Source: Microbacterium sp. LWS13-1.2
Lineage (GTDB): Bacteria; Actinomycetota; Actinomycetes; Actinomycetales; Microbacteriaceae
Direction of reading: 5' to 3'
NCBI RefSeq assembly: GCF_040144835.1
Contig: NZ_CP151632.1
Span: 3,286,001-3,350,000, forward strand
Length of the DNA: 64,000 bases
Notes under the pieces: generated by a model
What the model was told of the DNA's origin: nothing
Database searches by the model: none
The model's input: only the letters and a program-made list of their open reading frames with translations
Program-made: the position numbers and the translations under genes
Shown here: positions 55,166 to 58,447 of the stretch, in pieces
Layout of the letters: the number at the start of each line of letters is the position of its first letter
Numbering within the stretch: the first letter of the stretch is position 1

Positions 55166-55786
55166 TCAGCCGCTGGTCGGCGGTGTCGGTCGTGGCCGGC
55201 GCACGATGAGGTAGATCACAGCGCCGGCTACCAGCAGGATGAGCACAACGACCCATGGAACCCAGTTCATCGGTGACGCGGTGGTATCGCCCGCCTCCGC
55301 GGTAGGCGACGGAGACGACGTCTGCGAGGGCGACGGTGACGCGCTGGGCGTCGGCGTGCGTGTCGCCGTCTGCTCCGGCTCGGGCGTTGCCGTGAGCTCG
55401 GGAACCACCGTGGGCGCCGGCTCGGGCACCACCGTCGGTTCGGGTTCGGGTTCGGGTTCGGGTTCGGGCTCGGGTGTGGGTTCAGGCGTGGGTTCCGGTG
55501 CCACGGTCGGCTCAGGCGTCGGCTCGACGGTCGGCTCGAGAGTCGGCTCCGCCGTGGGCACAGGCGTCCGCGTCGGCAGGATCGGCGTCCGCGTGGGGAG
55601 GTCCGTGGGCAGGGTCGTGGGCACGCCCGTCGGAAGCGTCGTCGGCAGAGCGGTCGGGATCGGGATCCCGCCGTTGCCGCAGCCGGCCAGGAGCGTGAGC
55701 GCGGCGGCGACGGCGAGCCCCGCCAGCACTCGGGCGGCGCGGGCGCCCCGCGGCGGCGATTCGCGTGTCACACGGGGATGCGGCAT
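55166..55786 (-). CDS. Lipoprotein with Pro/Thr/Glu repeats and C-terminal membrane anchor
   Basis: The product has 206 residues. The signal peptide ends in a lipobox (LTLLAGC, cysteine near residue 36). A 110-residue low-complexity stretch of PTxxPT and PEPEPE repeats follows, coded by TCGGGT/CGGGTT-type DNA repeats. The end is a membrane helix (WVPWVVVLILLVAGAVIYLIV) plus an Arg-rich tail. Having both a lipid anchor and a C-terminal helix is unusual; it may span the wall as a stalk. The start is ATG 55786 after GGAGGAA. Confidence 0.8.
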   Translation of the reverse strand: MPHPRVTRESPPRGARAARVLAGLAVAAALTLLAGCGNGGIPIPTALPTTLPTGVPTTLPTDLPTRTPILPTRTPVPTAEPTLEPTVEPTPEPTVAPEPTPEPTPEPEPEPEPEPEPTVVPEPAPTVVPELTATPEPEQTATRTPTPSASPSPSQTSSPSPTAEAGDTTASPMNWVPWVVVLILLVAGAVIYLIVRRPRPTPPTSG

Positions 55787-56006
55787 CCGATTCCTCCACA
55801 GGGGTCTTGGCCGCATGCTAGGCCCGCGCGCCGGTGGCGGCCCGGATTCGGGTCGAGACACACCGGCCCCGCGCGAGAGGCCGCATCCACGCCGGCCCGG
55901 CATGACCCCGTGTGACGCCGCGTGTCGCCGTGTCGCGGCATCCGTTATCGGCGTCTCTGCGCCGTGGCCGCCAACGGCGTCCTCGACGCCGCCCCCGGTG
56001 AGCGCC

Positions 56007-56012
56007 TAGACT
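56007..56012 (+). promoter_or_regulatory. -10 box of the leader-CBS-metB operon
   Basis: TAGACT lies seven bases before the leader peptide's GTG, so the transcript would begin at or next to the start codon. No good -35 is visible. Confidence 0.55.
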
Positions 56013-56019
56013 GGCGCCC

Positions 56020-56055
56020 GTGTTGACCTGTCGGTGTTGTCGCCCCTGCTGCTGA
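56020..56055 (+). CDS. Cysteine-rich leader peptide (probable attenuator)
   Basis: Starting from GTG 56020, the 11-codon frame reads MLTCRCCRPCC and stops with TGA at 56053-56055: five cysteines in eleven residues. It has no ribosome site but starts seven bases after a TAGACT box, as leaderless small ORFs do. It precedes a cystathionine beta-synthase-like gene and metB, the genes for making or moving sulfur between cysteine and methionine. Cys-rich leaderless upstream ORFs that sense Cys-tRNA are known in mycobacteria. A hairpin begins inside its stop codon. Confidence 0.75.
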   Translation: MLTCRCCRPCC

Positions 56056-56112
56056 AGCGTTCGCTTCGCACAGACCTCCGCGACCCCGCCAACCTTCCGC
56101 GCTCCCGCGCGG
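56054..56112 (+). promoter_or_regulatory. Hairpins of the cysteine leader
   Basis: GAAGCG (56054-56059) pairs with CGCTTC (56062-56067), starting within the leader stop codon. CCGCGC (56097-56102) pairs with GCGCGG (56107-56112) about 20 bp before the downstream GTG. Ribosome position on the Cys codons would decide whether the first can form. The mechanism is inferred. Confidence 0.5.
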
Positions 56113-56132
56113 GCAACACTCCAGGACTCATC

Positions 56133-57290
56133 GTGCGTTACGCCCAGAGCGTGGCCGACCTCGTCGGCAACACCCCCCTCGTCCGCCTGACCCGTGTCAC
56201 CGACGGCATCGCCGCCACCGTGCTGGCCAAGGTCGAGTACTTCAGTCCCGGCGGCTCCGCCAAGGATCGCATCGCCCGCCGAATCATCGACGCCGCCGAA
56301 CGCGACGGTCTGCTCGAACCCGGCGGCACGATCATCGAACCCACGAGCGGCAACACCGGCGTGGGCCTCGCGCTCGTGGCGGTGCAGCGCGGCTATCGCA
56401 TGATCTTCGTGGTGCCTGACAAGTTCGCGGGTCCGAAGGTCGACGTGCTGCGGGCCTACGGCGCCGAGGTCGTGGTGACCGACACGAGCGTGCCGCCCGA
56501 AGACCCGCGCTCGTACTACAGCGTGTCGGATCGGCTCGTCCGCGAGATCCCCGGCGCGTTCAAGCCGAACCAGTTCGCGAATCCGAACGGGCCGCTGAGC
56601 CACTACGAGACGACGGGGCCGGAGATCTGGCGCGACACCGACGGTCGCGTGACGCATTTCGTCGCCGGCATCGGCACCGGCGGCACCATCACCGGCACGG
56701 GCCGGTACCTGCACGAGGTGTCGGGCGGCACGGTGCGGGTGATCGGCGCCGACCCCGAGGGCTCGATCTACTCGGGCGGCCCGCTCCACGGCTACCTCGT
56801 CGAGGGCGTCGGCGAGGACTTCTGGCCCGACAGCTACGACCCCGCGGTGCCCGACGAGATCCATCGCGTCTCCGATGCCGAGACGTTCGAGATGACCCGC
56901 CGTCTCGCCCGCGAGGAGGGTCTCCTGGTCGGGGGATCGAGCGGGATGGCGGTCGTCGCCGCGCTGCGCACCGCCCGCGAGCTGCCTGCCGACGACGTGG
57001 TCGTCGTGCTGCTGCCCGACCACGGCCGCGGCTACCTCAACCGCTTCTACGACGACGACTGGATGCGGGACCACGGGTTCGAGGTGAGCCGCGCCGAACC
57101 CACGCTCGTTGAGCGAGCGAGGAACGAGCGAGACGAAGCGCCTGCACGCGGCGCACACCTTGGCCCCGAGGCATCCGCGCAGGTCCCGGTCGTTGAGCGA
57201 GCGAGGAACGAGCGAGACGAAACGCCTGCACGCGGCGCACACCTTGGCCCCGAGGCATCCGGATCCACCCACGAAGGAGCACCCGCATGA
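56133..57290 (+). CDS. Cystathionine beta-synthase-like PLP enzyme lacking CBS domains
   Basis: The product has 385 residues. The PLP lysine is in SPGGSAKDR, with SGNTGVGLALVA and the phosphate loop GTGGTITGTG; this is the cysteine synthase/CBS fold. Full-length actinobacterial CBS has about 455 residues with two CBS domains at the end. Here the fold ends at GYLNRFYDDDWMRDHGF and is followed by two 28-residue copies of a dispersed DNA repeat (VERARNERDE...GPEAS). The start is GTG 56133, after AGGACTC. It overlaps metB by ATGA. Confidence 0.85.
   Translation: MRYAQSVADLVGNTPLVRLTRVTDGIAATVLAKVEYFSPGGSAKDRIARRIIDAAERDGLLEPGGTIIEPTSGNTGVGLALVAVQRGYRMIFVVPDKFAGPKVDVLRAYGAEVVVTDTSVPPEDPRSYYSVSDRLVREIPGAFKPNQFANPNGPLSHYETTGPEIWRDTDGRVTHFVAGIGTGGTITGTGRYLHEVSGGTVRVIGADPEGSIYSGGPLHGYLVEGVGEDFWPDSYDPAVPDEIHRVSDAETFEMTRRLAREEGLLVGGSSGMAVVAALRTARELPADDVVVVLLPDHGRGYLNRFYDDDWMRDHGFEVSRAEPTLVERARNERDEAPARGAHLGPEASAQVPVVERARNERDETPARGAHLGPEASGSTHEGAPA
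57107..57261 (+). repeat. In-frame tandem duplication (84-bp period) of a dispersed repeat inside the CBS-like gene
   Basis: Two 71-bp copies (57107-57177 and 57191-57261) start CGTTGAGCGAGCGAGGAACG and differ by one base; the period is 84 bp, exactly 28 codons. A related copy lies at 55055-55087 on the other strand. Confidence 0.95.
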
Positions 57291-58447
57291 CCGAGCCCAC
57301 GAACGACTCCGGTTTCGAGACCCGCGCGGTGCACGCCGGTCAGGCCTTCGACCCCACCACCGGGGCCGTGATCCCGCCGGTGCACTTCTCCACGACGTAC
57401 GCGCAGGACGGCATCGGCGGGCTCCGCGAGGGCTACGAGTACGGTCGCAGCGGCAACCCGACCCGCACCGCTCTCGAGACGCAGCTCGCCGCGCTCGAAG
57501 GCGGCGCGCATGCCCTGTCGTTCGCGTCGGGACTCGCCGCCGAGGATGCGCTGCTGCGCGCCGCCCTCAAGCCCGGCGACGAGGTGCTGCTCGGCAACGA
57601 CGTCTACGGCGGCACCTATCGGCTCATCGCGCGCGTGCTCGGCGCGTGGGGCATCGGCGTGCGCGTGGTCGACATGAGCGACCTCGGCGCGGTGCGCGCG
57701 GCCCTCGAGGAGCGCCCGGCGCGCATCGTGTGGGTCGAGACCCCCAGCAACCCCCTGCTGCGCATCACCGACATCGCCGGGCTCGTGAGGCTCGGCCATG
57801 ACGCTGGCGCCCTCGTCGTGGTCGACAACACCTTCGCGTCGCCCGCGCTGCAGCAGCCGCTGGCCTTCGGCGCCGACGTGGTGGTGCACTCGACCACGAA
57901 GTATCTCGGCGGCCACTCGGACGTCGTCGGCGGCGCGCTCGTGCTCAACGACGAGGCCCTGTACGGCGAGGCGAAGTTCCTGCAGTTCGCCGTGGGCGCC
58001 GTCTCCGGCCCCCTCGACGCGTGGCTCACCACCCGCGGCGTCAAGACGCTGGCCCTGCGCATGCGACGGCACAGCGAGAACGCGCACGCGATCGCCGAGT
58101 TCCTGTCGGGCCACGAGGCGGTCGAGCGCGTGTACTACCCCGGCCTGCCGTCGCACCCCGGGCACGAGGTCGCCGCGCGGCAGATGAGCGGGTTCGGCGG
58201 CATCGTCTCGGTCGCGCTGGCGGATGCCGCATCCGCCCGCCGCTTCGCCGAGTCGACGCGCCTGTTCCAGCTGGCCGAATCGCTCGGGGGCGTCGAGTCG
58301 CTCATGAACTACCCCGACGAGATGACGCACGCCTCGGTGCGCGGCACCGAGCTCGCCGTCCCGCCCGAGGTGGTGCGCCTGTCAGTCGGCATCGAGTCGG
58401 TCGCCGACCTCCTCGCCGACCTCGACCAGGCCCTCGCCGGCCTCTGA
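57287..58447 (+). CDS. metB: Cystathionine gamma-synthase/lyase
   Basis: The product has 386 residues and is a Cys/Met-metabolism PLP enzyme. It has YEYGRSGNPTR near the N-terminus, VDNTFASPALQQPLAFGADVVVHSTTKYLGGHSDVVGG with the PLP lysine, and the closing RLSVGIESVADLLADL. With the CBS-like partner it moves sulfur between homocysteine and cysteine; the direction (MetB or lyase) cannot be decided. It is probably under control of the Cys leader. Confidence 0.92.
   Translation: MTEPTNDSGFETRAVHAGQAFDPTTGAVIPPVHFSTTYAQDGIGGLREGYEYGRSGNPTRTALETQLAALEGGAHALSFASGLAAEDALLRAALKPGDEVLLGNDVYGGTYRLIARVLGAWGIGVRVVDMSDLGAVRAALEERPARIVWVETPSNPLLRITDIAGLVRLGHDAGALVVVDNTFASPALQQPLAFGADVVVHSTTKYLGGHSDVVGGALVLNDEALYGEAKFLQFAVGAVSGPLDAWLTTRGVKTLALRMRRHSENAHAIAEFLSGHEAVERVYYPGLPSHPGHEVAARQMSGFGGIVSVALADAASARRFAESTRLFQLAESLGGVESLMNYPDEMTHASVRGTELAVPPEVVRLSVGIESVADLLADLDQALAGL

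Follow-up and report, generated by a model that had tools for sequence, protein, structure and literature searches.

What is the function of a frame of eleven codons, five of them for Cys, that lies directly ahead of two transsulfuration genes? The frame occurs in a 64,000-nt stretch of DNA from Microbacterium sp. LWS13-1.2 (the window), where an earlier note had taken it for a likely cysteine attenuator on a leaderless transcript. Direct reading agreed with the description that the note had given. The leader ORF occupies 56020–56055 on the forward strand, as do all features of the locus unless stated otherwise, and consists of 11 codons and a stop, GTG-TTG-ACC-TGT-CGG-TGT-TGT-CGC-CCC-TGC-TGC-TGA, for the peptide VLTCRCCRPCC (first residue V, from a GTG start). 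Cys codons are found at positions 4, 6, 7, 10 and 11. A -10-like box, TAGACT (56007–56012), precedes GTG 56020 with a gap of 7 nt, the spacing that the note had reported, and would belong to a putative leaderless promoter. A sigma-70 consensus scan at the leader found no promoter above its threshold, so the start-site call rests on this box and its conservation. At its other end the ORF runs into a hairpin, as had also been described: P2, TGAAGC-GTTC-GCTTCG (56053–56068), opens on the stop codon TGA (56053–56055), with U-G as its outermost pair.

Several elements further along could interact with the ORF. The Cys-codon tract (codons 4–11, 56029–56052) contains in its first part a strand common to two alternative helices. 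One predicted partner is the 3’ strand of helix P1, CGCGACCCCGCCAAC (56079–56093), which complements part of the tract and for which CGACGACCCCGACAG is the usual form in the genus. The other (CAACACT, then CAGG; 56114–56126) appears in the centroid structure of the window leader and touches the Shine-Dalgarno sequence AGGA at 56123–56126. Between them lies a predicted third hairpin, P3, CCGCGC-TCCC-GCGCGG (56097–56112), 5’ of the ribosome-binding site and present in both the minimum-energy and the centroid folds of the window leader.

The spacer from the leader stop to the GTG start at 56133 measures 77 nt, and the two genes behind it both belong to transsulfuration, as the note had held, and lie on the same strand. 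The first (56133–57290) encodes a cystathionine beta-synthase (CBS) catalytic domain without the C-terminal CBS module; its product has the PF00291 PLP-fold domain, and its best NCBIfam match, TIGR01137 cystathionine beta-synthase, covers profile positions 2–323 of 457 at 489 bits, below the cut-off of 510.25. The second, metB (57287–58447), overlaps the CBS stop and encodes a member of the cystathionine gamma-synthase family (NF005871, 639 bits against a cut-off of 513). The CBS open frame extends back to GTG 56034 within the leader (56034–56133); comparison with relatives and the conservation of VRYAQSV at the start favor 56133 as the start codon. Near its 3’ end (57103–57261) the CBS ORF has two copies of a 75-nt repeat, 97% alike and 84 nt apart, that contains GTTGAGCGAGCGAGGAACGAGCGAGACGAA and sits in the open frame reaching the metB overlap, and the tail of the CBS protein is therefore partly repeat sequence. 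On the other side of the leader lies a divergent minus-strand ORF (55166–55903); it begins close to a stretch resembling that of a lipoprotein (LLAGC) and also contains a long repeat region rich in Pro, Glu and Thr.

When the 64-kb window was scanned for T(A/G)NNNT followed after 4–8 nt by an RTG that opens a short ORF (up to 30 codons, three or more of them for Cys), the leader was the sole match, and the same scan found none in three more stretches of the genome (47.5 kb); the match thus goes beyond chance. No further Cys leader thus turned up near the two PF01507 (cysH/cysD type) genes and the PLP-fold genes of the genome, either in these three stretches or at the loci around the five other PLP-fold genes. 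Besides the CBS gene, two adjoining PLP-fold genes related to CBS and cysteine synthase lie elsewhere in the genome (G000:C1:4195079-4196973), with no Cys leader by the scan.

We then asked whether the ORF is conserved, as the note had proposed to check on relatives. A protein search of 149 Microbacterium genomes gave 112 CBS orthologues at E < 1e-150, from which upstream DNA was taken for 110 (G030, at a contig edge, and G124 were excluded; G034, where the match covers residues 1–180, was not counted among the orthologues). Leaders were sought as ORFs of up to 25 codons that start with RTG 4–8 nt after TANNNT. Such an ORF with at least three Cys codons preceded 69 of the 110 genes and one with two Cys codons a further eight, making 77; a leader spotted by eye in G108, MFPTCHCCL-stop behind CAGAAT, brings the total to 78 of 110, the window's own included. 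Cys codons and frame are thus retained across most of the sample. The consensus is V(x)LTCRCCR-stop. Among the 77 leaders, 39 have 8 codons, 24 have 9, one has 10 and 13 have 11; 75 start with GTG and 76 stop with TGA. The commonest form has 8 codons and three Cys (VLTCRCCR), and the PCC tail is a feature of the window's clade. The gap from box to start was 6 nt in 58 leaders and 7 nt in 19; while TANNNT and a gap of 4–8 nt were conditions of the search, the tightness to 6–7 nt was not. Codon choice was strongly biased: the leaders use TGT 230 times and TGC 17 times, compared with one TGT and nine TGC in four genes of the window. Searched in whole genomes, a degenerate DNA pattern encoding LTCRCCR was found in 53 of 149, and 52 of its 56 matches sit about 100 nt 5’ of the CBS gene (a reversed-pattern control gave 20 matches). 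LTCRCCR without a TANNNT box occurs in two further Microbacterium records (L007, L027).

No leader was found for the other 32 of 110 orthologues. Their open frames run to 463 or more, and the N-terminus differs (mostly MKYADSIVDLVGDTP or close to it). In all 32 it is the CBS start codon that TANNNT precedes by 6–7 nt, compared with none of the 77 genes with a leader, so the leaderless place presumably falls to either the gene or the Cys ORF. The spacing of 6–7 nt, before the leaders and before these 32 genes alike, fits leaderless starts, and Cys leader and leaderless CBS gene look like alternatives. This clean split of the genus (77 against 32) lends itself to a natural comparison. Examples of genomes without the leader are L216 (G001), L223 (G014), L225 (G095), L189 (G106) and L197 (G116).

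Does the leader extend beyond the genus? In a draw of 249 genomes from the family, 179 had a CBS orthologue at E < 1e-100, 177 of them outside Microbacterium. We took 86 upstream stretches from 85 of these 177 genomes (G247 contributed two; L272 was dropped, the gene lying near a contig edge) and applied a rule that asks for TANNNT, a gap of 5–8 nt and an ORF no longer than 25 codons, at least two of the last eight being Cys. A Cys leader preceded CBS in 29 of the 86, representing 16 of 50 genera, compared with none on the 86 reverse strands and an expectation of 0.08 from shuffles. The same rule run for other amino acids gave 19 matches for Arg, 10 for Ser, four for Leu and none or one for each of the rest. 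All 29 leaders finish in Cys...Arg, they use TGT 71 times and TGC 5 times, and their peptides include VFLNCCCR, VSTVKSCCCCR, VFVIPTCCRR, VSSSFPCCRCR and MRVSPSCCCR. The rule found no Cys leader in the remaining 57 of 86 sequences and it misses some, such as VTFTCRCCR behind CAGACT in G247. Among 80 named relatives, 21 have a leader: 13 Microbacterium, two Cryobacterium, two Agromyces, two Occultella, one Naasia and one labelled Actinomycetota (L041). The rule found none in the Streptomyces and Arthrobacter records of this set. The locus is a single, well-conserved one that is found too in cultured, named Microbacterium strains; M. trichothecenolyticum DSM 8608 (L006), for instance, carries an identical leader peptide.

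These comparisons bear on what is being conserved. The bases of TGACCTGTCGNTGTTGTCGC are near-invariant in Microbacterium, third codon positions included, as they could be if a protein such as a sulfur regulator bound the DNA or RNA here and the Cys codons were incidental. However, what other genera retain is the frame with its start, stop and Cys codons, and few bases besides; length differences come in whole codons, and the -10 box keeps its 6–7 nt from the ORF; we consider a protein-read site very unlikely. The preservation of LTCRCCR beyond its Cys residues in Microbacterium, together with the common Cys...Arg ending elsewhere, could also point to a peptide that acts itself, by nascent-chain arrest or as a tiny metal- or redox-binding peptide. 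This too seems very unlikely, since residues besides Cys and the final Arg differ between genera and a peptide of 8–11 residues barely extends into the exit tunnel.

To see whether the leader RNA has structure of its own, we compared it with shuffled sequences and between genomes. P2 is strongly supported: 57 of the 77 leaders form it with at least five effective pairs, compared with 7.1 expected from shuffles, and among 35 representatives (string similarity below 0.85) 20 do so against 3.2 expected. Its stems vary, among them TGAAGC/GCTTCA, GAACGC/GCGTTC, GAGCCG/CGGCTC, GAGCGCG/CGCGCTC and CGACGC/GCGTCG, as compensatory change would give. By this point a chance ORF without function, for which its very small size might speak, appears extremely improbable in view of the conservation in Microbacterium and in other genera, the controls, the P2 counts, the 6–7 nt spacing and the split of 32/32 against 0/77.

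Helix P1, between the Cys codons and the conserved C-rich segment downstream (CGACGACCCCGACAG or CGCGACCCCGACAA in the genus), is moderately supported. In the 35 representatives, a windowed duplex test placed it in 20-nt windows 12 nt past the stop (mean z -1.54), and its downstream strand paired with the ORF at a probability of 0.685. Of all cells in 19 seed leaders, 94.3% pair at P1, compared with at most 64.3% when the segment is slid; covariation in these leaders was not above that of shuffles, because the coding (5’) strand hardly varies. Leaders with GTCAG break one P1 pair. The P1 site showed in the windowed test only; when duplexes of the Cys tract were allowed anywhere in the spacer, the signal was weak (z -0.68, compared with -0.24 for a reversed-strand control; p < 0.05 in 6 of 77). 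Pairing between Cys codons and spacer was 0.72 in the 35 representatives, against 0.64 with shuffled spacers (25 of 35 above control). For the 29 leaders from other genera it was 0.75 against 0.67, with 21 of 29 above control.

Folded as a whole, the 77 Microbacterium leaders have a mean z of -2.2, with 42 below -2; for the window leader folding was modest (z -1.55, 13 of 200 shuffles being at least as good). Its minimum-energy fold pairs 56080–56093 with 56030–56043, and a comparison with the centroid fold suggests that two partners compete for the Cys tract: P1, and the segment that touches the Shine-Dalgarno sequence. The latter partner is not general in the genus. GC hairpins like the predicted P3 occur in many single folds. 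RNAalifold on a plain MAFFT alignment of the 77 leaders returned no leader structure, only three pairs within the CBS coding start, and in a search of 55800–56400 with Rfam covariance models the only match was a miRNA on the other strand (E 2.4, far below the gathering score). In a swap of leaders and spacers among 19 leaders, only 1 of 74 others outdid G000 on the spacer of G000, and G055, G015, G119, G111, G046, G099 and G050 were outpaired on theirs by most others; a general co-variation of leader and spacer was rejected on account of these 7 of 19. Finally, no intrinsic terminator with a U-run was found in 55850–56250, and a classical trp-type transcription attenuator was discarded, as that region has no terminator-like site.

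Taken together, we suggest that the leader is very probably a ribosome-based cysteine sensor that tunes CBS–metB, as in mycobacteria. We favor this reading because the Cys codons and frame are kept in 78 of 110 orthologues and leaders ending in Cys...Arg-stop occur in 29 of 86 sequences from other genera; because either the gene or the Cys ORF appears to hold the leaderless place; because of the preference for TGT, the excess of P2, the evidence for P1 and the freeing of the Shine-Dalgarno sequence in other genera (see below); and because CBS and metB are transsulfuration genes and cysteine-responsive leaderless ORFs are reported from mycobacteria. The transcript would begin at or beside GTG 56020, and a ribosome would load straight onto its leaderless end. 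With ample Cys-tRNA it would clear the Cys codons and depart at the stop codon, the codons would then be free to pair with P1 (56079–56093) or with the stretch at 56114–56125, and CBS–metB would stay low. With scarce Cys-tRNA the ribosome would stop on the UGU codons and block these helices, and CBS–metB would be expressed, yielding more cysteine from homocysteine. The read-out could lie either in translation initiation or in transcription past the leader.

We masked the stretch under a ribosome on the Cys codons and computed how far the Shine-Dalgarno sequence becomes free, with shuffled spacers as control. In other genera (33 leaders, that is 36 minus three without a recognisable Shine-Dalgarno sequence; one is from Microbacterium and there are a few near-identical pairs) the unpaired fraction rose from 0.30 in the free RNA to 0.55 with the stalled ribosome, compared with 0.29 to 0.41 for shuffled spacers; it increased by more than 0.1 in 26 of 33 and decreased in three. 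A direct duplex between Cys tract and ribosome-binding region was weak in these leaders (z -0.70, below -1.5 in 7 of 33); in L254 the codons TGT TGT CCT are gaplessly complementary to AGGACAACA, Shine-Dalgarno sequence included. A translational read-out is thus plausible in other genera. For the 77 Microbacterium leaders no freeing beyond control was seen (0.34 to 0.38, control 0.27 to 0.36; up in 22, down in 10), nor did the opening energy of the 35 representatives gain more than that of the control (6.41 to 6.14, a gain of 0.28, against 8.01 to 7.45, a gain of 0.56 kcal/mol). Folding therefore does not support Shine-Dalgarno release as the read-out in Microbacterium, the change being within that of the control. 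The earlier proposal that the mechanism reaches Microbacteriaceae held as far as sequence can carry it, in 16 of 50 other genera, with the corrections that 32 of 110 orthologues have no leader and that folding does not favor Shine-Dalgarno release within the genus.

Output in Microbacterium could equally be transcription through the P1–P2 structure. This would be the same sensor with another read-out: a hairpin of P1 and P2, formed once the ribosome has left, would halt RNA polymerase, either by itself without a U-run or together with Rho; stalling of the ribosome would keep this from happening. In its favor are the pairing of the P1 strand with the ORF in the 35 representatives and its release on stalling (0.61 unpaired), the unchanged access to the Shine-Dalgarno sequence, and the weak suggestion of Rho for mycobacterial cys leaders in the consulted part of a 2005 survey (PMC1262725); the absence of a terminator-like site from 55850–56250 speaks against it. 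We regard it as a serious possibility, though somewhat short of an even chance.

In the mycobacterial model, a ribosome on the Cys codons stops the RNA from hiding the Shine-Dalgarno sequence. In 2015, leaderless mycobacterial transcripts were observed to carry Cys-rich ORFs upstream (PMC4633059). For such leaderless Cys-codon ORFs before cysteine genes, a 2020 study is reported by later papers to have described cysteine-responsive attenuation, ribosome speed on the Cys codons controlling the genes behind (Canestrari et al., 2020, Mol Microbiol 114:93, via PMC9094748, PMC9031893 and PMC13236596). Like these polycysteine ORFs, the leader is a putatively leaderless Cys-codon ORF before cysteine genes; it differs from them in its 8–11 codons, near-fixed CRCCR core, nearly constant UGU, stop-codon hairpin and association with CBS–metB. 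The citing literature discusses six ORFs of this kind in M. tuberculosis, compared with one locus in the stretches examined of the window's genome. The 2005 survey, in the part consulted, predicted Cys leaders for cys operons of Mycobacterium and P. acnes and for cbs of Bifidobacterium longum, with no conserved terminator hairpins (PMC1262725). Those leaders likewise have Cys codons close to the stop, and the B. longum one has the same target gene; unlike them, the present leader has a P2 that recurs with changed stems and a P1 that uses the Cys codons, and that part of the survey names no Microbacteriaceae. More distant parallels, likewise from partial accounts, are the uORFC-8-2 motif before cysS in Rhodobacterales, which also has tandem Cys codons in a stem and a proposed attenuation but differs in its Cys codons 14 and 15, AUG start, dominant UGC, following intrinsic terminator, phylum and gene (PMC8632094), and the LEU element before leuA in Actinobacteria, in which a run of regulatory codons also pairs with the downstream Shine-Dalgarno region but which concerns leucine, forms a pseudoknot and is not described as leaderless in the part consulted (PMC1262725). 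None of the literature matches listed, judged by title and start of abstract, reports such leaders in Microbacteriaceae; Canestrari et al., 2020 may hold a wider survey. What is new would be the lineage: a further family for a known kind, the mycobacterial polycysteine attenuators, with leaderless cysteine attenuation carried into another actinobacterial family.

A more specific design is conceivable, and we put it forward tentatively, as rather doubtful. In this compact arrangement, recurring across the family, the UGU codons of a leaderless ORF some 8 codons long would serve both as sensor and as a helix strand with two competing partners, a hairpin would sit on the stop codon, UGU would be kept over UGC so that pairing and wobble decoding sharpen the switch, and the freed C-rich strand, not the Shine-Dalgarno sequence, would be the output in Microbacterium. 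If true, the freed C-rich strand as output would be unlike the Cys attenuators compared above. The very short ORF and its strong UGU preference make both sensing and read-out directly testable.

The reach of the leader RNA itself was assessed with a model, R1; the 19 leaders from which it was built match it by construction. R1 matched 67 of the 149 Microbacterium genomes, with 65 of 68 matches preceding a CBS homologue, and just 4 of 299 genomes in the family draw, so the exact leader RNA is mostly a genus-level feature. At E 0.01 it did not match the window's own genome, the model being derived from other clades. One match (L247, G034 562785–562844) precedes a CBS homologue that aligns over residues 1–180 of 318, perhaps a decaying gene that has retained its leader.
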